Source: a virus. Taken from it: DNA of 41,182 nucleotides. Below, in pieces: positions 1-41,182 of the stretch. Under the pieces are notes generated by a model. The model did not search any database, was not told where the DNA came from, and saw nothing but the letters and a program-made list of their open reading frames with translations. The position numbers and the translations under genes are program-made. Each line of letters opens with the position of its first letter. Positions within the stretch are counted from its first letter, which is position 1. Location: positions 1 through 41,182 of IMG/VR virus record IMGVR_UViG_3300046787_000356, one strand, 5' to 3'.

Positions 1-103
1 CCATACCACTCTTGAGCATATATATAATAAGTAGTTCGGTATCAGAGTTCCTGGCGTCTACTGATGCTTTTAATATTGATTCAACTCTTTGGCTTACGTT
101 CAT
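1..103 (-). CDS. Small phage protein, partial (N-terminus only)
   Basis: The first 34 codons of a gene whose full version lies at 39972-40289; the rest lies beyond the left window edge. The ATG at 101-103 overlaps the stop of the upstream gene (ATGA). Changes against the full copy are few and synonymous, so it is under protein-level constraint. Function unknown; see the full copy for its helical, charged sequence. Confidence 0.8.
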   Translation of the reverse strand, partial: MNVSQRVESILKASVDARNSDTELLIIYMLKSGM

Positions 104-447
104 GCTAAATTCTCCTTTACACGATCTATAAACTTTTCTATCTGCTGGCTATACCAAACCTCAAAGTCGCTACTAATATCCATCTGCTTGTACATAACAA
201 ACAGTACGGCTCGTAGTCTTTGGCTTGGTGATTGCCCTGTATCTCGCTTGGCTAGTTCTTTGGGTATCTCGGACTCCTGGTGTTCGTTAGCCTGAAACAG
301 TAACCAACCAAATGTCTGGTAGTATTCCATTAACATCACCTTGTCAGCTTTAGTCACTTCATTAGTTACAAATCTTAGTGTAACTGAGCCGTCTTTTCTA
401 GGAGTTACGCCATCTAATATTGCTGGTATTTGAAAAGTTTGACTCAT
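100..447 (-). CDS. Conserved phage early protein, unknown function (115 aa)
   Basis: Starts at the ATG at 445-447 rather than further upstream, because the second copy at 40286-40633 starts at the same residue (MSQTFQIPAIL against MSNKFQVPAIL) and AAGGAG lies 8 bases before it. The residues after about 30 are almost invariant between the copies, while residues 3-30 vary. The N-terminal half looks like a beta-rich domain (GVTPRKDGSVTLRF) and the rest helical. The product sits just downstream of the recombination genes in the early unit. The start overlaps the HNH stop (ATGA). No family recognised; the short length and position resemble phage recombination or replication accessory proteins, but this is inference. 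Confidence 0.8.
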   Translation of the reverse strand: MSQTFQIPAILDGVTPRKDGSVTLRFVTNEVTKADKVMLMEYYQTFGWLLFQANEHQESEIPKELAKRDTGQSPSQRLRAVLFVMYKQMDISSDFEVWYSQQIEKFIDRVKENLA

Positions 448-947
448 AATACTAGCTCCTTGTGTGGACATTCTCCAAATAATCCTTTGCTAGCATTACA
501 ATTCCAGCACAATACTTGAAAACCAGATGGGTAGCCCCTACTTTTTAACCAATAGTAAATCTTTGCTCCTTTTAATTTGTGTTCTTTCCTATGAGCAGCA
601 CCATCATTGTTAATGTGGTCGAGAGTTAGAAAGTCTAAACTATTTTCAGAACAACAGTTACAAGAAGGATAATAACCACCTGAGTAGTGAATAAATGTAT
701 CAATTTTTAGAGCAAGATGTGCAGCGTTCATAGATTTTCTACGTTGAGCTTTGACTTCAGGTCGTTTGCCATATTCTTGTTGTTTAGCTAAAAGTTCTAC
801 TCTGTTGTTTTTATAGTATTCCTTATTACTATTCTTTACCTTTTCAAGATTGTCTTGACGATATTTACGCACCCTTTCTTTAATAACTTCTCTTTGAGAT
901 TCATACCTAGATTTGTCATAAATACGCTTTGCTTCTTTAGTAATCAT
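444..947 (-). CDS. HNH endonuclease (homing-type, 167 aa)
   Basis: A DNA-cutting enzyme of the HNH superfamily. The C-terminal half has the zinc-bound core: CNCC near residue 96-99, the catalytic LDHINNDG at 109-116 and WNCN near 148-151. The first 70 residues are a lysine/arginine-rich helix with repeated KEYYKNN/KQQEYGK-like units, probably for DNA binding. GGAGGG lies 6 bases before the ATG, and both ends overlap the neighbouring genes as ATGA. In the other strain copy the same slot holds an unrelated 72-residue gene, so this is a recently exchanged cassette. Probably a selfish homing gene or one involved in exclusion of related phages. Confidence 0.85.
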   Translation of the reverse strand: MITKEAKRIYDKSRYESQREVIKERVRKYRQDNLEKVKNSNKEYYKNNRVELLAKQQEYGKRPEVKAQRRKSMNAAHLALKIDTFIHYSGGYYPSCNCCSENSLDFLTLDHINNDGAAHRKEHKLKGAKIYYWLKSRGYPSGFQVLCWNCNASKGLFGECPHKELVL

Positions 948-1558
948 TTCATGCCCTCCAACTGTGTTATTAACTCGTCTACTTCTTCTAAGAAGTCTAG
1001 TACAGCATCTTCAAGTGACTCTATGTAGTCATCATCACGCTCAACCCTAGTAATAAAGATTGCTCTTTTAGGGTCAAGTCTAGGATCGTAGCTTACAAAG
1101 TCACACCACTTGCGACCAGTAATCCACATCTGCCCTTGCATCTGAGCGTAATACTTCTTAGGTGCTACTTCAGATAGTAGGGTCATAATATGAGTGGCAG
1201 TATTTGGACATTTAATCTCTATGAGTCCGTCACTACCTACTAAGCCGTCAGGACTTGCCCCTGCTTTAATAGTCTTGTGTTTAACTAAACCAGTCTCGGC
1301 TACTTCTTTGCCTGTAATCGTAGCGTAGATAGCCCTAGCTTCGGCTTCGTATTGATTGCCCCAAGCCATAGCTGGTGAGGTGTAAGACTCTGCTCTTTGA
1401 CCAGTTAGCCGTTCAGCGATTATTTCAGCCTTATAGTTATATCGAGCAGCAGCTTCGCCACTTTTTACAGATGCTAGTACATCAGAAAATCTTGATGCTG
1501 TGACTACTCCTATTCTCGCCTGAAACCACTCCTCGCTTCCTTGTATTTGGTCGCTCAT
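944..1558 (-). CDS. YqaJ/lambda-type recombination exonuclease
   Basis: A 5'-to-3' double-strand exonuclease of the YqaJ viral recombinase family (PD-(D/E)XK fold), which resects phage DNA ends for annealing. Seen: GSEEWFQARIG at 7-17 and TASRF at 20-24 (family start motif), then SPDG with D104 and IEIK with E114 and K116, the metal-binding catalytic set. 204 residues is normal for the family. It lies two genes downstream of a Rad52-type annealing protein, forming a two-component recombinase like lambda Exo/Beta. A homing-type gene separates the two. Its C-terminal 80 residues are repeated without amino-acid change at 40845-41087. Confidence 0.9.
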   Translation of the reverse strand: MSDQIQGSEEWFQARIGVVTASRFSDVLASVKSGEAAARYNYKAEIIAERLTGQRAESYTSPAMAWGNQYEAEARAIYATITGKEVAETGLVKHKTIKAGASPDGLVGSDGLIEIKCPNTATHIMTLLSEVAPKKYYAQMQGQMWITGRKWCDFVSYDPRLDPKRAIFITRVERDDDYIESLEDAVLDFLEEVDELITQLEGMK

Positions 1559-2031
1559 AAAGCCCTCGTCTTTCCAGATAACACTCTTGAAACAGTAGAC
1601 TGGTTTAATCCAAGTCTCGTGCCTATTTCTCTTTGCGAAATACCTATCTGATTCATTACTTTAATACTAGCCATAACACTCTCGGTAGTCTTAACCATTC
1701 GTAACCCATTCTTATAAGCGTGTCTAGTATTTAATTGGTTGGTTGTCCACTCTAAGTTATCTACATTATTATTGCACTTATCGCCATCAATATGATTGAC
1801 TTGGGGTAATTGTTCATCGTTAGGTATATAAGACTTAGCCACCAGACGAGCTACAAAGAAGCTTTTTCTGCTACCATCACGAGTCAATGTAACACAGTAA
1901 TATCCCTTGTGGTTTTTATTTTGTTTGAGCCACAACCCTTTTCTATTAGCATTGACATTCTTGGGGTAACTCCAAACTCTACCATCTTTGGTAATAGCAT
2001 AAAGTCCTTCGTAGTCTTTAATGTCCTGCAT
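1555..2031 (-). CDS. NUMOD4-HNH homing endonuclease with HTH tail
   Basis: A homing endonuclease with three parts: NUMOD4-like start (DIKDYEGLYAITKDGRVWS), an HNH_3 core with VNHIDGDKCNNNVDNLEWTT and the following N...HAYKNG, and a C-terminal helix-turn-helix (ISQREIGTRLGLNQSTVSRV). I chose the ATG at 2029-2031, preceded by GAGG at 6 bases, over a TTG at 2046 that has no such site. It overlaps the end of the Rad52-type gene by 14 bases and the exonuclease start by 4, so it has invaded the recombinase operon without breaking either gene. Confidence 0.9.
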   Translation of the reverse strand: MQDIKDYEGLYAITKDGRVWSYPKNVNANRKGLWLKQNKNHKGYYCVTLTRDGSRKSFFVARLVAKSYIPNDEQLPQVNHIDGDKCNNNVDNLEWTTNQLNTRHAYKNGLRMVKTTESVMASIKVMNQIGISQREIGTRLGLNQSTVSRVLSGKTRAL

Positions 2032-2587
2032 TGTATGCCTCAGCAATCTTAGTAATCTTTTCTATATCTACTGAGTTGTCTAGGTCAGCTATACTAGCTT
2101 CAAAAGCTAACTCGGCTACATCTTCCCAGCGTTCTATATGACTGCTAGGTAAAGCCCAATCTGGTAGTTCAGGTATTTCTTTAAGTTGTTTGTACTGATC
2201 TAAACCAACCCAAACTCTAGGTAGGTAGTATAGGTAACGTCCAATACCCCAGACTGCAGCAGCTCGCTTGAGTGCTGAACTTGCTCCACCTTTGATAGAT
2301 TCTATGTCGGTAAAGTCGGCTGCATCAGACTTAGTAACCCATACACCGTCTATTAAGATAGATAGTTCACAGATAAAGCCACCGTTCATTTCAAGGATCT
2401 TAGATTGCCAACCACCTACGCCACAGACATCATCAAGTCTTTTGTAGACTTCCCTAGCATCTAAGTAGGCTAGTGCTGTAGCTTTGGTCTTGTCTTTAGT
2501 AGTCTGACCAACTCTCCATTTAAGGAACTTAGGGTCAAACGGTTCTTTCAGTTGTTTTAATAGTGTATCTTGTACTTCTCTTGTCAT
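2018..2587 (-). CDS. Rad52-family single-strand annealing protein
   Basis: Resembles the Rad52/Rad22-type annealing proteins of phages, which coat single strands and pair them during recombination-driven replication. Seen: the core KWRVGQT...ALAYLDAREVYKRLD, a GGWQ turn, then the beta segment FICELSILIDGVW and SALKRAAAVWGIGRYLYYLP, the typical Rad52 pattern. 189 residues is normal. Start: the ATG at 2585-2587 has GGAG 6 bases upstream; another ATG 12 bases earlier is actually part of that site. The start overlaps the stop of a 23-residue gene (ATGA). It partners with the exonuclease at 944. Confidence 0.85.
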   Translation of the reverse strand: MTREVQDTLLKQLKEPFDPKFLKWRVGQTTKDKTKATALAYLDAREVYKRLDDVCGVGGWQSKILEMNGGFICELSILIDGVWVTKSDAADFTDIESIKGGASSALKRAAAVWGIGRYLYYLPRVWVGLDQYKQLKEIPELPDWALPSSHIERWEDVAELAFEASIADLDNSVDIEKITKIAEAYNAGH

Positions 2588-2655
2588 AGTATGCTCCATA
2601 TAATCATTAGTCCTAGTAATCCCCAGAATGCTGCGTAGTAAATATCATCTTTCAT
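2584..2655 (-). CDS. 23-residue single-span membrane peptide
   Basis: A tiny reading frame, MKDDIYYAAF followed by the hydrophobic WGLLGLMIIWSIL, one predicted transmembrane helix. AGAGGAG lies 7 bases before the ATG and its stop overlaps the Rad52-type start (ATGA), so it is very likely translated and coupled. Function unknown; small early membrane peptides in phages often modify host processes, but nothing here proves that. Confidence 0.65.
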   Translation of the reverse strand: MKDDIYYAAFWGLLGLMIIWSIL

Positions 2656-2947
2656 ATTCAGACTCCTCTACTGGTATGTATTCACAATGTTCAAAACAGA
2701 ATGAACACCTATTAACTGCGTCAAACTCGCCTTTAGAACTTACGCCACAACAGTTTGATACTGTTTCCACCACACCGATAAGTCTCTCACCACTTTGTCG
2801 TTGCATATCTCGTATCTGCATAGCTAAGAAGTCGTTGTACTCCTGTAGGCTATCACGTAATCCCTCTAGTATTACACGTTGCATTTCGATACCGTTTTGC
2901 AAAGCCGTTACTAGTTCATTGGCTTTTATAGCATCTTCAACTTTCAT
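2645..2947 (-). CDS. Early protein with C-terminal zinc-like cysteines (100 aa)
   Basis: Starts at the ATG at 2945-2947 with AAAGGA about 10 bases upstream; a GTG start 27 bases earlier is less likely. The N-terminal 60 residues are helical (ELVTALQNGIEMQ...LQEYNDFLAMQIRDMQ), followed by a cysteine cluster NCCGVSS...CSFCFEHC suited to one zinc ion. Overlaps the upstream gene by 11 bases. Family not recognised; the helix-plus-zinc layout suggests a DNA- or protein-binding accessory factor. Confidence 0.75.
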   Translation of the reverse strand: MKVEDAIKANELVTALQNGIEMQRVILEGLRDSLQEYNDFLAMQIRDMQRQSGERLIGVVETVSNCCGVSSKGEFDAVNRCSFCFEHCEYIPVEESEYER

Positions 2948-3287
2948 CTGACCAGTTTCCTTTCTTTGGTTCACCTATTACTATTCCATCCCAATCTACT
3001 TCAGAGTGTTGCCAAGCATAGCAGTCTTGACATTCCCATACCTTTAACGTGTATGAGTTGTACTCACCTGAGTAGCTAGAATCGTCAAATTCATCTTCTA
3101 CTATTTCGTGATTGGCATGGGAACAAACCCATTCGCTATCTTCGTTTAGTTCAAAGACTTGAGTATCTTGCTTAACGTCTATTACTACTCTTTTGCGAAT
3201 AGTTAAGAAGCTAAGACTAGTCTCGGTCTGATTGACCAAATCACCAAACCAGTTTGAGTTTGGTATTGTTATATCTATTGCTTTCAT
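2937..3287 (-). CDS. First gene of the leftward early unit, unknown (116 aa)
   Basis: ATG at 3285-3287 with AAAGGG 8 bases upstream, just downstream of the strong leftward promoter at 3320-3347. The protein begins beta-rich and has a possible zinc site: WVCSHANHE near residue 53 and WECQDCYAWQH near 90, separated by an acidic stretch (EDEFDDSSYSGEY). As first gene in the early unit it is a candidate host-takeover or anti-defence protein, but this is inference from position only. Confidence 0.8.
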   Translation of the reverse strand: MKAIDITIPNSNWFGDLVNQTETSLSFLTIRKRVVIDVKQDTQVFELNEDSEWVCSHANHEIVEDEFDDSSYSGEYNSYTLKVWECQDCYAWQHSEVDWDGIVIGEPKKGNWSDES

Positions 3288-3319
3288 TGTTGTTGCCCTT
3301 TCTTATGTTTACACCCCTT

Positions 3320-3347
3320 ATTATACGCTTATGTTGCAATAAATCAA
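3320..3347 (-). promoter_or_regulatory. Leftward early promoter (sigma70 type)
   Basis: On the minus strand TTGATT (3342-3347), 16-base spacer, perfect TATAAT (3320-3325). It lies 33 bases before the first early gene and drives 2937 leftward through the recombination genes and across the contig junction. Confidence 0.75.
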
Positions 3348-3359
3348 GACCTTTTTTGC

Positions 3360-3387
3360 TTATACTTGTGGAAAAGTATGGTATAAT
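3360..3387 (+). promoter_or_regulatory. Rightward promoter with extended -10
   Basis: TGG-TATAAT, with TATAAT at 3382-3387 and the TG of the extended -10 at 3379-3380; weak -35 TTATAC at 3360-3365 with 16-base spacer. Transcription would begin about where the stem AAAGCCAGGG starts (3393). It is back to back with the leftward early promoter. Confidence 0.65.
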
Positions 3388-3392
3388 GTAAC

Positions 3393-3450
3393 AAAGCCAG
3401 GGGAAATCTCGTATTTCATTGTTGCCCAACTGCCCTGGCTTTTATTTAAT
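3393..3450 (+). ncRNA. Candidate structured RNA or attenuator
   Basis: A perfect 10-bp outer stem, AAAGCCAGGG (3393-3402) with CCCTGGCTTT (3433-3442), encloses a second hairpin GAAAT/ATTTC with a 5-base loop and a small GTT/AAC stem, giving a three-way-junction shape. TTTTATTTAATT follows, so it may end transcription. It starts directly at the expected start site of the promoter at 3382 and lies upstream of a 44-residue gene. It could be a stand-alone small RNA or an attenuator; no known family recognised. Confidence 0.5.
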
Positions 3451-3451
3451 T

Positions 3452-3586
3452 ATGAAACCTAATAAATCACACAAAAGAAAAAAGACCTGCGTTAAGTGCG
3501 GTGCTAAGTGGGAAATAATATGGCACGACCAAGAACATTGGCTAGAATGGATCACTTGCCCTAAGTGTAGATACAAAAAGAACTAA
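3452..3586 (+). CDS. 44-residue zinc-ribbon microprotein
   Basis: Basic N-terminus (MKPNKSHKRKK) followed by TCVKCGAKW and ITCPKC, two CxxC pairs 24 residues apart, a classic zinc ribbon. No clear Shine-Dalgarno site; the ATG lies 9 bases after the hairpin at 3433-3442, so translation would depend on read-through of that element. Similar tiny zinc-ribbon proteins are common in phages and often bind host RNA polymerase or nucleic acid, but the role here is unknown. Confidence 0.55.
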   Translation: MKPNKSHKRKKTCVKCGAKWEIIWHDQEHWLEWITCPKCRYKKN

Positions 3587-3601
3587 TATTTAACTTGCTA
3601 G

Positions 3602-3610
3602 TGGTATAAT
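3602..3610 (+). promoter_or_regulatory. Extended -10 promoter before a short RNA
   Basis: GTGGTATAAT: TATAAT at 3605-3610 with TG one base before it. No good -35 box. A terminator follows about 90 bases later (3699-3724) with no convincing gene between, so it should make a short transcript. Confidence 0.55.
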
Positions 3611-3616
3611 TCAAAT

Positions 3617-3724
3617 GTCGCTGTGTACGAAGTACCTTAGACCACACTTTCATTTACAACTATTTTCTATTTTGATTTATAAAACAAACAGATATATGAC
3701 CCATCTTCGCAGAGGTGGGTTTTG
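3617..3724 (+). ncRNA. Candidate small RNA of about 105 bases
   Basis: Bounded by an extended -10 promoter (3605-3610) and an intrinsic terminator (3699-3724). Contains a small GTAC-GAA-GTAC hairpin and an A/T-rich single-stranded stretch. A 39-codon frame from the ATG at 3615 has no ribosome site and ends inside the next promoter, so the RNA itself is the likelier product. No known family recognised. Confidence 0.45.
3699..3724 (+). terminator. Rho-independent terminator
   Basis: Stem ACCCATCT with AGAGGTGGGT (8 pairs with one T-G wobble) and a short loop, followed by TTTTGT. Ends the candidate small RNA on the plus strand. Confidence 0.65.
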
Positions 3725-3730
3725 TCATTC

Positions 3731-3759
3731 TTGACATTATAAGCATGAAGGTGTACTAT
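3731..3759 (+). promoter_or_regulatory. Rightward promoter, consensus -35
   Basis: Perfect TTGACA at 3731-3736, 17-base spacer, TACTAT at 3754-3759. Would transcribe through the direct repeats and the folded region towards the 4022 gene. Confidence 0.55.
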
Positions 3760-3770
3760 CTAGGTACTAT

Positions 3771-3781
3771 TTGCTCTAACC
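3771..3781. repeat. Direct repeat, left copy (TTGCTCTAACC)
   Basis: Identical 11 bases recur at 3817-3827, 46 bases apart, on both sides of the terminator hairpin and between two opposed promoters. The spacing and placing suit an operator pair. Confidence 0.5.
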
Positions 3782-3791
3782 AGCACATAAG

Positions 3792-3817
3792 AAAAACCCC
3801 CCGATAAACGGAGGGCT
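3792..3817 (-). terminator. Rho-independent terminator, leftward
   Basis: On the minus strand AGCCCTCCG, loop TTTAT, CGGGGGGTT: nine pairs with two G-T wobbles, followed by a T run. On the plus strand the same hairpin has a C-A mismatch and no T run, so it works leftward. It stands only about 12 bases after the start site of the leftward promoter at 3836-3863. Confidence 0.65.
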
Positions 3818-3827
3818 TGCTCTAACC
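3817..3827. repeat. Direct repeat, right copy (TTGCTCTAACC)
   Basis: Second copy of the 11-base repeat at 3771-3781. It lies just downstream of the leftward -10 box at 3836-3841, where a bound protein would block transcription. Confidence 0.5.
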
Positions 3828-3835
3828 TATACATT

Positions 3836-3863
3836 AGTATAGCGATTAAGCCTTATTTGTCAA
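3836..3863 (-). promoter_or_regulatory. Leftward promoter facing a terminator
   Basis: Minus strand TTGACA (3858-3863), 16-base spacer, TATACT (3836-3841): near consensus. The only thing downstream is the terminator at 3792-3817, giving a predicted transcript under 45 bases. Confidence 0.6.
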
Positions 3864-3874
3864 CTAGCATTTAG

Positions 3875-3968
3875 TAGTCGAAGGCAGAGCGTTGGAAGGG
3901 TAACGCAAAGGGCGACTATAAGATACCTCAGTACAAACTTCACCAAACGTTTTATCTTATCGTATAAA
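3875..3968 (+). ncRNA. Folded leader with two mutually exclusive stems
   Basis: TAGTCG (3875-3880) pairs with CGACTA (3913-3918) around an inner GCGTT/AACGC stem (3889-3893, 3902-3906) with loop GGAAGGGT. Next, ATAAGATA (3918-3925) pairs with TATCTTAT (3953-3960); that right arm can instead form TTTAT/ATAAA (3951-3955, 3964-3968). Lies 54 bases before the 4022 gene. Exclusive pairing is typical of regulatory leaders, but no known riboswitch class was recognised. Confidence 0.4.
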
Positions 3969-4021
3969 GGTCAGACAGGGGAGTAATTTAACTCTAGGTA
4001 CATTAACAAGGAGGGTAATAC

Positions 4022-4237
4022 ATGAAGCAAGTTAAACTTGAACATCTTAAAGATATAGATTTTAGGAAAAGAGAAGTTAGACAAGCAGATCATATCAATG
4101 AGTTTAAGAATTGGTATAACGAGCTGGCTAATAGACCTTATACTGAAACAACTCAGGCTCAATTAACTATGTTAAGTAGCGTTCTATGGTACTTACTACC
4201 TAAGAAAGACTATAATAAACTAACTAAGCTAAAGTAA
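4022..4237 (+). CDS. Small basic protein, unknown (71 aa)
   Basis: AAGGAGGG lies 6 bases before the ATG, a very strong ribosome site. The protein is charged and helical (KQVKLEHLKDIDFRKREVRQADHINEFKNWYNELANRP) with a lysine-rich end. No family recognised. As the first well-translated gene after the control region it is a candidate regulator of the rightward unit; position is the only support. Confidence 0.75.
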   Translation: MKQVKLEHLKDIDFRKREVRQADHINEFKNWYNELANRPYTETTQAQLTMLSSVLWYLLPKKDYNKLTKLK

Positions 4238-5481: not shown

Positions 5482-5852
5482 TGGCTAAGAAAGACTTAAC
5501 TTCCAAACAAGCTAAGTTTGTTAAGGGAATAGCAGAGGGCAAACCAAACTATGTAGCGGCACTAGAAGCATACGATACAGACCAACCAGAAGTAGCAAAT
5601 GCAATAGCAGTAGAAAACCTTCAAAAACCTTCAATACAAGAAGCTATAGAATTAGCAAGGGTTAAGCTCAACATTACACCAGAAAGAGTATTGAAGCCAA
5701 TAGACGATGCACTCAATGATGATGATGTTAAAACTAGACTAATGGGAACAGATAGAGCATTGAAGTTAATGGGTATAGGTAAGAACAAAGATGATCCTAA
5801 TGTAACTAACTTCGTACAGATCTATAATGACATGAGAGACAAGTATACCTGA
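5481..5852 (+). CDS. Terminase small subunit
   Basis: The DNA-recognition part of the packaging motor. N-terminal LTSKQAKFVKGIAEGKPNYVAALEAYD is the helix-turn-helix pattern of Terminase_2-type small subunits (usual wording: LTxKQxxFvxxyxxGxnaxxAAxxAG), and the C-terminal half is helical for oligomer formation. 123 residues is within the usual range. It ends by overlapping the large subunit ATPase start by 1 base, as is usual for these pairs. Confidence 0.8.
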   Translation: MAKKDLTSKQAKFVKGIAEGKPNYVAALEAYDTDQPEVANAIAVENLQKPSIQEAIELARVKLNITPERVLKPIDDALNDDDVKTRLMGTDRALKLMGIGKNKDDPNVTNFVQIYNDMRDKYT

Positions 5853-6646
5853 TGGACAGCCCCTATACTAAGTCAGCCCTTTTTATAGAGGATAACCTAA
5901 CGATTATAGATAAGACTGGAACAGAGATACCCTTTGAACTCAATAAGATACAAAGACGATTCGTAGAGGAAGCAACAGGTAAAGATATAATTCTCAAGGG
6001 TAGGCAGATGGGATTCAGTTCATTTATACTCGGAGCATTTACAGGTGACTTCTTATTCAAAGAGAATAGCTTATCAGTAGTTATAGCCGACATAGCCGAC
6101 AATGCACAGGACTTACTGGCTAGAGTTAAGCACTACATTAAAGCTTTCGAGGCACACGAAAAGACTAAGATACCCCTGAAGTATAACTCCAAGTACGAAC
6201 TACAGAACGCTATCAACGGTGCTAGATACATTATTGGTACAGCAGAGAACACAGAGTTTGGTAGATCCAAAACCATTACTAATCTGCACATGTCCGAAGC
6301 AGCCTTTTATAAACACTTCGCCAAGATACATGCTGGTGCAGGTACAGCTCTAGTGCCTACAGGTCGATTCGTAGTAGAGACAACAGCCAATGGGTTCAAT
6401 GACTTCAAGACCTTTTATAACGACTCAGAGATGGGAGAGACAGACTTCAAAGCACACTTCTATTCATCATTCGATTTTTATGACCCAGAGTTCTTAGAGA
6501 AAGAGAGGAAACGACTGGGTAGACTATTTGACCAAGAACACCCAAGTTCAGCCGAGGTAGCCTTCCTCACATCAGGGGAATTGTACTTTGACCAGTTCGC
6601 ACTCAGAGATTATCTAAAACAAACGAAAGAACCCATAACAGCATGA
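5852..6646 (+). CDS. Terminase large subunit, ATPase half
   Basis: The ATP-driven DNA pump of the packaging motor. Seen: a Walker A-like KGRQMGFSS (residues 49-57), Walker B ending in MSEAAF with catalytic E149, and the coupling motif VETTANG at 175-181. The protein stops at 264 residues, before the nuclease domain, which is a separate gene overlapping by 4 bases (ATGA). Together they equal one normal large subunit. Confidence 0.9.
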   Translation: MDSPYTKSALFIEDNLTIIDKTGTEIPFELNKIQRRFVEEATGKDIILKGRQMGFSSFILGAFTGDFLFKENSLSVVIADIADNAQDLLARVKHYIKAFEAHEKTKIPLKYNSKYELQNAINGARYIIGTAENTEFGRSKTITNLHMSEAAFYKHFAKIHAGAGTALVPTGRFVVETTANGFNDFKTFYNDSEMGETDFKAHFYSSFDFYDPEFLEKERKRLGRLFDQEHPSSAEVAFLTSGELYFDQFALRDYLKQTKEPITA

Positions 6647-7293
6647 GCTTCCGTAGATACCGAGACTACAAAAGAGATGAGTTCTACGTTGTAGGAGTAG
6701 ATACGGCATGGGGCGGTACTGACTATTGCTCGGCACAATTCTTATCTAAGACTAAACTAGATATTCCAGTAGTCTATCACTCCAGAGTATTAGCAACAGA
6801 AATGACACCTATGATACATAACGAGTTAGAAAGGATACACAATGAAACAGGAGTCAAACCAGTGGTGGCTTTTGAACGGAATAATGGTGGCGTGGCTGAG
6901 ATTGAACGGCTCGCCACACTCAACAGGAACGGTAAGTACCGTATTTATACAGAGAAAACAAACATTGGTACGACAGATAGCACAGAAGATACAGTCAAAC
7001 TGGGGTGGACGACCTCCAGTAGTTCACGTCCAACTATGCTCTCGATGCTTAAAGAAGCCATTGATAACAGGCTCATACGAATATACGACAAGCCAACTAT
7101 CAATGAAATGTTCTCATTTATCGTCAGTCAAACCTCAAGTAGTTGGAAAGCCCAAGCAGAAGTAGGCGCACATGACGACCTTATCATGGCATTGTCTATA
7201 GCCTGGCAGATGTACCAGACCGAGATGCCACCAGTTAAGTTGAATAACAATATACCACAATATAAACCAACTAATTTTATGGTGGGAGGATAA
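6643..7293 (+). CDS. Terminase large subunit, nuclease half
   Basis: The RNase H-fold nuclease that cuts concatemers during packaging. Metal-binding acids: D20 in VVGVDTAWGG, E78 in VVAFERNNGG and D178-D179 in GAHDDLIMAL. 216 residues, the normal size of a Terminase_6C-type domain. It starts by ATGA overlap with the ATPase gene, so the two halves are translated in step. No intron-like gap is present, so the split is at the protein level. Confidence 0.9.
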   Translation: MSFRRYRDYKRDEFYVVGVDTAWGGTDYCSAQFLSKTKLDIPVVYHSRVLATEMTPMIHNELERIHNETGVKPVVAFERNNGGVAEIERLATLNRNGKYRIYTEKTNIGTTDSTEDTVKLGWTTSSSSRPTMLSMLKEAIDNRLIRIYDKPTINEMFSFIVSQTSSSWKAQAEVGAHDDLIMALSIAWQMYQTEMPPVKLNNNIPQYKPTNFMVGG

Positions 7294-9527: not shown

Positions 9528-9554
9528 TTGCACAAGCACACTTTATGATATAAT
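9528..9554 (+). promoter_or_regulatory. Late promoter before portal
   Basis: TTGCAC (9528-9533), 15-base spacer, perfect TATAAT (9549-9554) with TGA directly before it (extended -10). First of a set of similar late promoters followed by a GAGACTTGCC-like leader. Confidence 0.65.
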
Positions 9555-39971: not shown

Positions 39972-40289
39972 CTAACCCTCCTCTACTATGCGGTAGCCTA
40001 ATTTTGCTAATTGACGATTTGCGTCTGCATACTCGCCTTGAAATTCTTTCATCTTTTCATAACGTGCTTCGTTTACTTCTTCCGAAGCTTCGTACTTACC
40101 TTGTTCTTGTAGTTGCCTCCTTGCTCTTGTTATTGTTTCCATACTTGGCATCTCTTTGAATGCCTTTATCTGCTTTGGGGTCAACTCCATACCACTCTTG
40201 AGCATATATATAATAAGTAGTTCGGTGTCAGAGTTCCTGGCATCTACTGATGCTTTTAATATTGATTCAACTCTTTGGCTTACGTTCAT
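39972..40289 (-). CDS. Helical early protein, full copy (105 aa)
   Basis: The full version of the gene cut at 1-103. Residues 1-35 look like a helical domain; the middle is ELTPKQIKAFKEMPSMETITRARRQLQ, which could form a winged or HTH-like fold, and the end is charged (YEKMKEFQGEYADANRQLAKLG). ATG overlaps the 115-residue gene's stop. Possibly a regulator or replication organizer; not recognised. Confidence 0.75.
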   Translation of the reverse strand: MNVSQRVESILKASVDARNSDTELLIIYMLKSGMELTPKQIKAFKEMPSMETITRARRQLQEQGKYEASEEVNEARYEKMKEFQGEYADANRQLAKLGYRIVEEG

Positions 40290-40633
40290 GCTAAATTCTC
40301 CTTTACACGATCTATAAATTTCTCTATCTGTTGGCTATACCAAACTTCAAAGTCGCTACTAACATCCATCTGCTTGTACATAACAAACAGTACGGCTCGT
40401 AGTCTTTGGCTTGGTGATTGCCCTGTATCTCGCTTGGCTAGTTCTTTGGGTATCTCGGACTCCTGGTGTTCGTTAGCCTGAAACAGTAACCAACCAAATG
40501 TCTGGTAGTATTCCATTAACATCACCTTGTCAGCTTTAGTTACTTCATTTGTATGAAATCTCAGGCTGACCCCACCATCTTTAAGCGGTGTAACGCCCTC
40601 TAGTATGGCTGGTACTTGGAATTTGTTACTCAT
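40286..40633 (-). CDS. Conserved early protein, second allele (115 aa)
   Basis: The other strain's copy of the gene at 100-447. C-terminal 85 residues are nearly identical, while the first 30 differ by several residues (ILEGVTPLKDGGVSLRFHTN here). Overlaps the 72-residue gene's stop (ATGA). The comparison fixes the start at MSNKF/MSQTF. Confidence 0.8.
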   Translation of the reverse strand: MSNKFQVPAILEGVTPLKDGGVSLRFHTNEVTKADKVMLMEYYQTFGWLLFQANEHQESEIPKELAKRDTGQSPSQRLRAVLFVMYKQMDVSSDFEVWYSQQIEKFIDRVKENLA

Positions 40634-40848
40634 AGGTTACTCGCTAACTTAGCTGCAAGCAATACGTCGTGTTCAGCATCATCACCCATTACGGGGTCTC
40701 CAGCTATCCAGTCTGCTTTATTGTGATACTCTCTAACAAACCTGTCGTACCATTCTCGACCTGATATAAGTTCTTGGTGTTCGCTGTTGTAAACTTTTCC
40801 ACCAATTATGTACAGCCCATAACCCACTATATTTATCTTGTCTGTCAT
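40630..40848 (-). CDS. Alternative gene in the HNH slot (72 aa)
   Basis: Takes the place of the HNH gene (444-947) in the other strain copy, with the same overlaps: its ATG overlaps the exonuclease stop and its stop overlaps the next start. Sequence MTDKINIVGYGLYIIGGKVY..., a beta-rich start and then WIAGDPVMGDDAEHDVLLAAKLASNL. Unrelated to HNH. Possibly the ancestral gene or a rival cassette. Function unknown. Confidence 0.75.
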   Translation of the reverse strand: MTDKINIVGYGLYIIGGKVYNSEHQELISGREWYDRFVREYHNKADWIAGDPVMGDDAEHDVLLAAKLASNL

Positions 40849-41182
40849 TTCATGCCCTCCAACTGTGTTATTAACTCGTCTACTTCTTCTAAGAAGTCTA
40901 GTACAGCATCTTCAAGTGACTCTATATAGTCATCATCACGTTCAACCCTAGTAATGAAGATTGCTCTTTTAGGGTCAAGTCTAGGATCATAACTAACAAA
41001 GTCACACCATTTACGACCAGTAATCCACATCTGCCCCTGCATCTGAGCGTAGTATTTCTTAGGTGCTACTTCAGATAGTAGGGTCATAATATGAGTGGCA
41101 GTATTTGGACATTTAATCTCTATGAGTCCGTCACTACCTACTAAGCCGTCAGGACTTGCCCCTGCTTTAATAGTCTTGTGTT
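40845..41182 (-). CDS. YqaJ-type exonuclease, second allele, partial
   Basis: Carries the C-terminal 111 codons or so of the same exonuclease as 944-1558, cut by the right window edge. Protein is unchanged in the shared 80 residues, including the IEIKCPN region just inside the edge, while the DNA differs at many third positions. Confidence 0.85.
   Translation of the reverse strand, partial: HKTIKAGASPDGLVGSDGLIEIKCPNTATHIMTLLSEVAPKKYYAQMQGQMWITGRKWCDFVSYDPRLDPKRAIFITRVERDDDYIESLEDAVLDFLEEVDELITQLEGMK

Follow-up and report, generated by a model that had tools for sequence, protein, structure and literature searches.

A candidate antisense RNA beside the leftward recombination operon of a likely Saccharibacteria phage

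The IMG/VR virus record IMGVR_UViG_3300046787_000356 (41,182 bases, taken whole and called the window below) contains a region that separates a leftward operon (3287 to 100) from a rightward operon leading to the terminase and structural genes. The question raised by this locus is whether it encodes regulatory RNAs and on what they would act. The first-pass annotation had described a cluster of promoters, terminators, a repeat and folded RNAs at this divide. The host is very likely a Saccharibacterium, because the relatives of the window terminase in genome collections are mostly from Candidatus Saccharibacteria bins; the standard genetic code suits the window genes. One hairpin RNA of the region, S1, is probably an antisense RNA that restrains the leftward recombination operon, since the layout is repeated in three other phages with different yet matching sequences.

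The predicted hairpin RNA S1 and its proposed target

The features of S1 and of its predicted target are as follows.

100..3287, minus strand: leftward operon of 7 genes that the leftward promoter (PL) would drive, the proposed target of S1
3282..3313, minus strand: 5' leader and translation start region of gene 2937-3287, GUGUAAACAUAAGAAAGGGCAACAACAAUGAAA
3282..3298, minus strand: predicted S1 target, consisting of a GGG resembling a Shine-Dalgarno (SD) sequence, a spacer, AUG and the next codon, GGGCAACAACAAUGAAA
3320..3347, minus strand: PL, TTGATT-16-TATAAT (10/12 match), which would drive the operon 3287 to 100; RNA start at about 3313
3367..3375, minus strand: TTTTCCACA box directly ahead of the S1 promoter, consistent with TTWTNCACA, a relaxed form of the DnaA box
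3377..3387, plus strand: predicted S1 promoter, extended -10 TATGGTATAAT, a word enriched in Saccharibacteria genomes over the reversed control
3393..3448, plus strand: S1, a predicted antisense RNA of about 56 nucleotides (nt), with stem AAAGCCAGGG/CCCUGGCUUU, a 30-nt loop and a U-tract terminator
3414..3427, plus strand: antisense segment of the S1 loop, UUUCAUUGUUGCCC
3452..3586, plus strand: possible 44-aa zinc-ribbon open reading frame (ORF), directly after the S1 terminator, without an SD and with sub-threshold Pfam matches only

The 11-base direct repeat of the first-pass annotation was recovered as TTTCATTGTTG at 3282-3292 and 3414-3424. On the minus strand, the first copy reads CAACAATGAAA and forms the region around the start codon of gene 2937-3287. 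The middle of the S1 loop contains the second copy. The pairing of this loop with its target, which had not been noticed earlier, comprises 8 base pairs (bp), a 3-nt bulge and 6 bp between UUUCAUUGUUGCCC and GGGCAACAACAAUGAAA, with an energy of -20.6 kcal/mol. The bulged match reaches the SD-like GGG and gives 14 bp across the SD and AUG. The leftward leader is unstructured, with a minimum free energy of just -3.6 kcal/mol. When shuffled loops were paired with a slightly different leader stretch, 3 of 2000 reached the cognate energy.

One strict promoter and terminator rule was applied to the whole window, and 200 shuffles of 3201-4100 were used as the control. Three promoter-terminator units were obtained from the 41-kb window, all of them within the region.

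-10 at 3382-3387, stem at 3393-3442, plus strand: S1 unit
-10 at 3605-3610, stem at 3698-3721, plus strand: S2 unit
-10 at 3841-3836, stem at 3818-3794, minus strand: mS unit

The segment 3201-4100 contains 4 strict promoters, 3 terminators and 3 units, against means of 0.47, 0.05 and 0.0 in the shuffles. The proposed cluster is confirmed in part by these units. The two terminators counted in the first-pass annotation became three, and the minus-strand unit mS had been overlooked. Extended -10 boxes before the first two RNAs were located as described (3377-3387 and 3602-3610), as was the intrinsic terminator at the end of the second.

The S1 and S2 promoters are credible because TGGTATAAT is confined to the region, the TGNTATAAT sites are intergenic and TATGGTATAAT is enriched in host genomes, with one copy 30 nt upstream of a host tRNA-Ser gene. 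TGGTATAAT was found twice in 41 kb, at the S1 and S2 promoters (reversed control, 0). In the window, TGNTATAAT is present at four plus-strand sites, with last bases 3387, 3610, 9554 and 20264. Counts summed over 61 Saccharibacteria genomes are 195 for TATGGTATAAT and 48 for the reversed control.

Matched loops and leaders in three other phages

No sequence relative of the region was found using blastn and tblastn against phages, plasmids and about 200 loci. Because homologous DNA was not found, a search for the anatomy of S1 was undertaken instead. A layout common to 4 phages was obtained: TGNTATAAT, a stem of 8-11 bp, a loop of 24-34 nt and a terminator, divergent from a strong promoter. All 4 loops are antisense to the leader of their own divergent promoter. 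The sequences differ between phages, yet they match within each. The spacing from copy to copy is 132, 149, 115 and about 121 bases in the four phages.

Locus L009 has a terminase half that is 76% identical to that of the window. At 166-241 it contains TTTTGGTATAAT and a hairpin with a 9-bp stem and a 30-nt loop, ended by a U-tract. The loop carries GTTGAAAGTTCGATTCCGTA, an exact 20-nt copy of positions 57-76; these positions belong to the leader behind a divergent TTGACA-17-TATTAT promoter.

Locus L113 has an exonuclease that is 70% identical to that of the window. Here TGTGGTATAAT ends at 2301 on the minus strand and is followed by the hairpin. The loop contains TGTATCCTTTCTT, antisense over 13 nt, with one G.U pair, to AAGAAAGGATGCA, which is the SD region (AAAGGA) of the divergent gene 2382. 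This gene is Rad52-type and precedes the exonuclease.

Locus L203 comes from the phage with the nearest small terminase subunit (64%). It contains TTGATATAAT, an 11-bp stem and a 24-nt loop with GTGCGAC and GCGAATC. The divergent leader is long and carries GATTCGCAAAAGTCGCAC behind a perfect TTGACA-17-TATAGT promoter. The pairing is 7+7 nt (GUGCGAC and GCGAAUC with GAUUCGCAAAAGUCGCAC) and lies upstream of an intrinsic terminator in the leader at 11547-11526. The operon includes an ERF-family gene.

Each loop was paired energetically with each leader in a 4 x 4 table. The own leader is the best partner for 4/4 loops, with energies of -20.6 in the window and -31.2, -23.6 and -23.6 in the three relatives. 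The non-cognate energies range from -6 to -15, with one exception. Dinucleotide-shuffled loops reached the cognate energy in 40, 1, 0 and 101 of 5000 trials (window first; p 0.008, 0.0004, 0.0002 and 0.02). All 9 pairs of the S1 stem vary on both sides across the cases, which were chosen for having the stem. This check for compensatory change, one of those suggested in the first-pass annotation, favors S1 in its stem and in the loop with its leader.

A covariance model was built from the promoter, stem and tail with the loops masked and was searched over 1.1 Mb. The four phages are placed first, a rank that is given by construction because they are the training set of the model. The informative part of the scan is the repeat-free hairpins elsewhere; the next-ranked ones (L018, L090, L086, L204 and L060) have no upstream repeat of at least 8 nt. 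Among 195 Saccharibacteria genomes, the S1 anatomy gave one weak match without the layout. The pattern of the divergent promoter region matched only the L009 and L203 contigs, plus three chance matches, and was absent from 393 Saccharibacteria genomes. No S1 was detected in the Erf-carrying regions of Saccharibacteria genomes.

Several candidates were rejected. The hairpins of L018, L090, L086, L204, L060 and L239 were set aside because the upstream repeat or the divergent leader is missing. The L029 repeat copies a ribosome-binding site in the sense orientation and is not antisense. G004 (L209 568-1252) is a long intergenic region without S1. The exact S1 stem, used as a homology probe, matched unrelated terminators only.

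In 3/4 phages, the extended -10 of S1 is preceded at a distance of a few bases by a TTWTNCACA box, at 3367-3375 in the window (reverse orientation), at about 152-160 in L009 and at about 11646-11654 in L203. TTNTCCACA likewise precedes S1 in L009 and L203. The TTWTNCACA box could link S1 to the replication state. In L009, the approximately 380 bases at 330-713, from the second RNA unit to ORF 714, have no clear gene; several hairpins and the repeated GGNCTTTTTGTCGT are present, and further RNAs are possibly encoded there.

Several results weigh against S1 as an antisense RNA. Among the 55 phage start regions, the leftward gene ranks second as a target (-20.6 vs -21.0), with a family-wise p of 0.31. 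A gap-penalised score for the window was equalled in 59 of 1000 shuffles, and with a wide 255-nt target region the z score is just -1.1 for the window and for L113. The window pairing considered alone is suggestive only, and the case rests on recurrence because that pairing is not significant genome-wide. The recurrence is limited to four cases, and the target site varies among them between the SD and start region (window, L113) and the upstream leader (L009, L203). The exception in the 4 x 4 table is the L113 loop with the window leader (-21.0), on par with the window's own loop, the two start regions being similar. The p values of the shuffled loops are somewhat optimistic, because the repeats of L009 and L113 were part of what drew attention to these loci. 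Two-strand folding gives the S1 stem and the loop-leader pairing as competitors, a pairing that keeps the stem being outside its scope. No close homologue of the window region was found, and the first leftward gene has no relatives in viral contigs. A leader role for S1 in the window is also possible, because ORF 3452-3586 starts just past it.

Proposed action of S1 and alternative explanations

From the promoter, stem, terminator, layout, complementarity and recurrence with matched changes, all read from the sequence, we infer transcription of S1, pairing in the cell, repression and its timing, and the role of RNase III. S1 would be a free-standing RNA with its own extended -10 promoter and its own stem as terminator. 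Its transcription would be directed away from PL without overlap. S1 would act in trans on the mRNA of the first PL gene, because the 30-nt loop includes, in antisense, a copy of that gene's start region. The open loop would pair with the short unstructured leader, cover the SD-like GGG and AUG, and block ribosome entry. The duplex may also be exposed to RNase III. The predicted outcome is restraint of the leftward recombination operon, with its annealing protein and exonuclease.

The loop of L113 would cover the SD of the gene for the annealing protein. In L203, before its terminator has been fully transcribed, the nascent leader could form an antiterminator of -14.2 kcal/mol between GAUUCGC and GCGAAUC; S1 bound to GAUUCGC would release GCGAAUC for the terminator and cause early termination. 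A single design may thus work on translation or on termination, since the L203 loop pairs upstream of a leader terminator and the window and L113 loops pair over the SD.

In IS10, ribosomes are blocked when RNA-OUT base-pairs with the RNA-IN start region (PMC5006887). Like RNA-OUT, S1 is a small hairpin RNA with a promoter (extended -10) and terminator of its own, both predicted from sequence, and with an open part complementary to an unstructured translation start. Unlike RNA-OUT, S1 is encoded divergently and without opposite-strand overlap with its target, a short copy of which is contained in the loop; the element, host phylum and target are also different. S1 may work like RNA-OUT, yet it is not a member of that class. 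Loop-linear binding and pT181 attenuation have been described (PMC3753616). The L203 arrangement resembles pT181 and pIP501 attenuation in that its loop would bind the leader directly before a leader terminator, and the paired segment might otherwise serve as an antiterminator. Those systems control plasmid copy number through overlapping antisense RNAs, whereas a phage operon and a repeated segment are involved here; in the window, no leader terminator is found downstream of the antisense site. The short antisense RNAs lambda OOP and P22 sar/sas tune phage development (PMC5415839). These RNAs overlap their targets and S1 does not, and there is no sequence relation.

Phage lambda also makes the 6S RNA at pR'-tR', a short RNA ended soon after its promoter and upstream of the late genes. 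S1 and S2 might similarly be by-products at promoter-proximal terminators, with a phage antiterminator later allowing readthrough into the terminase and structural genes. S1 and S2 are indeed tandem, rightward and just upstream of the late operon, and L009 also has two tandem TGGTATAAT units ahead of its terminase genes. This explanation is unlikely, because it does not predict loops of 24-34 nt that match the divergent leader in four phages, and S1 is not directed into the late operon in L203 and L113. No antiterminator gene was identified, and no Q-like gene was noticed in a search that was not exhaustive.

The repeats could instead be DNA operators, with one repressor on both copies closing both divergent promoters and the hairpin being a terminator that happens to contain a copy. 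The direct repeats are 115-149 bp apart and flank divergent promoters, and a TTNTCCACA-like box lies between the copies in three phages. The repeat sequences are nevertheless unrelated among phages and always inside the hairpin loop, and the other copy in the window and in L113 is exactly the SD and start region; the operator explanation is rather improbable.

Chance would leave S1 as an ordinary terminator whose loop accidentally repeats 11 nt. The family-wise p for the window agrees with this, and 10-11-nt repeats arise by chance in this AT-rich region. The layout and matching repeats in three more phages, one of them 20 nt exact, and the best pairing of 4/4 loops with their own leaders make such an accident very improbable. 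Least probable is S1 as a 5' leader or attenuator of ORF 3452-3586 and not a free RNA, because that ORF, although its start is less than 10 nt from the S1 stem, has no SD, the S1 terminator would halt most transcripts ahead of it, and no clear same-sense ORF follows S1 in L009, L203 or L113.

S1 as an antisense brake would be a concrete device, with four matched RNA-target pairs, in a virus group whose infection biology is nearly unknown. With its divergent arrangement and repeated segment, it is unlike the overlapping antisense RNAs already known from phages. In the limited literature searched, no paper describing regulatory RNAs was found for phages that infect Saccharibacteria or other Patescibacteria.

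Other units of the region and the remainder of the window

The remaining features of the region are as follows.

3602..3610, plus strand: predicted S2 promoter, extended -10 TGGTATAAT
about 3617..3727, plus strand: S2, a predicted RNA of about 110 nt with terminator stem 3698-3721, a strict promoter-terminator unit
3731..3759, plus strand: rightward promoter (PR), TTGACA-17-TACTAT (10/12 match), RNA start at about 3766
3836..3863, minus strand: mS promoter, TTGACA-16-TATACT (11/12 match)
about 3830..3786, minus strand: mS, a predicted RNA of about 45 nt with its end at terminator 3818-3794; its position would make it antisense to the early PR transcript
3869..3924, plus strand: S3, a stable hairpin of about 55 nt in the leader of gene 4022-4237 (core z -4.1; no relatives found)

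Folding z scores were computed per segment. Of the three folded RNAs in the first-pass annotation, S1 stands (3386-3450, z -2.15). S2 is mostly open apart from a real terminator hairpin (3612-3728, z just -1.0), and 3875-3968 reduces to the S3 hairpin in the rightward leader (3860-3975 as a whole, z -0.14; core 3865-3925, z -4.1). The suggestion of small RNAs at the divide is likewise supported, with moderate confidence, for S1, with its loop-target match and recurrence in 3 phages, and lacks comparative or target evidence for S2 and S3. When paired with all 55 start regions, S2, mS and S3 gave no target above chance (family-wise p 0.50, 0.06 and 0.69, respectively). Gene 4022 has no relatives in viral contigs. 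The Rfam scan also suggested in that annotation gave no match at the gathering score, the best weak match being MicC at 26.5 bits against a threshold of 90. The weak matches (MicC, Phe leader, ctRNA) were dismissed as mere likeness among terminators, and S3 as a ribozyme or riboswitch was set aside, with no Rfam match and no relative. Pairing of S1 with S2 or mS, as a sponge, is at chance level.

The minus-strand segment 3860-3788 (mS and an upstream hairpin) has a folding z of -4.2. Only the positional argument stands for mS targeting, because the best-target family-wise p is 0.06. mS also matches the leftward leader over 10 nt, a match rejected as chance (p 0.32). In a ColE1-type comparison, overlap is predicted for the mS and PR transcripts and is absent between those of S1 and PL. 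The mS terminator is bracketed by an imperfect direct repeat of 21 nt (81%) at 3771-3791 and 3817-3837, with TTGCTCTAACC on each side.

A two-way switch made only of RNA can be put forward as a speculative, doubtful extension. S1 made rightward would silence the leftward operon, and the leader of the rightward (terminase and structural) transcript would have mS, made leftward, as its antisense partner. Loops and leaders would change together fast and therefore form a private code per phage, as in plasmid incompatibility. Such a code could give phage-specific RNA immunity and an RNA-based superinfection specificity in Saccharibacteria viruses.

The leftward operon contains the following genes.

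2937-3287, minus strand: first leftward gene, small
2645-2974, minus strand: second leftward gene, small
2018-2599, minus strand: Rad52/Erf-type annealing protein
1555-2046, minus strand: HNH gene
944-1558, minus strand: YqaJ exonuclease
444-947, minus strand: HNH gene
100-471, minus strand: last ORF of the operon

The window ends duplicate each other, 1-448 with 40187-40634 and 944-1281 with 40845-41182 (92% and 97% identity). Between these repeats, the left copy has the extra HNH gene (444-947), at a place occupied in the right copy by a different ORF of 72 aa. The repeats are either a true duplication or the result of a circular genome closed across two strains distinguished by a homing endonuclease.

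In the window, an extended -10 box at 9546-9554 directly precedes the portal gene. The same arrangement apparently occurs at 4188 in L018 and at about 3022 in L029, and the box is likely a shared late promoter. The large terminase is encoded in two ORFs (5852-6646 and 6643-7293) with a 4-base overlap. Among relatives, L004 has the two halves side by side, and about 0.3-0.7 kb separates them in L007, L008, L009, L010 and L012, as though an insert were gained and lost.
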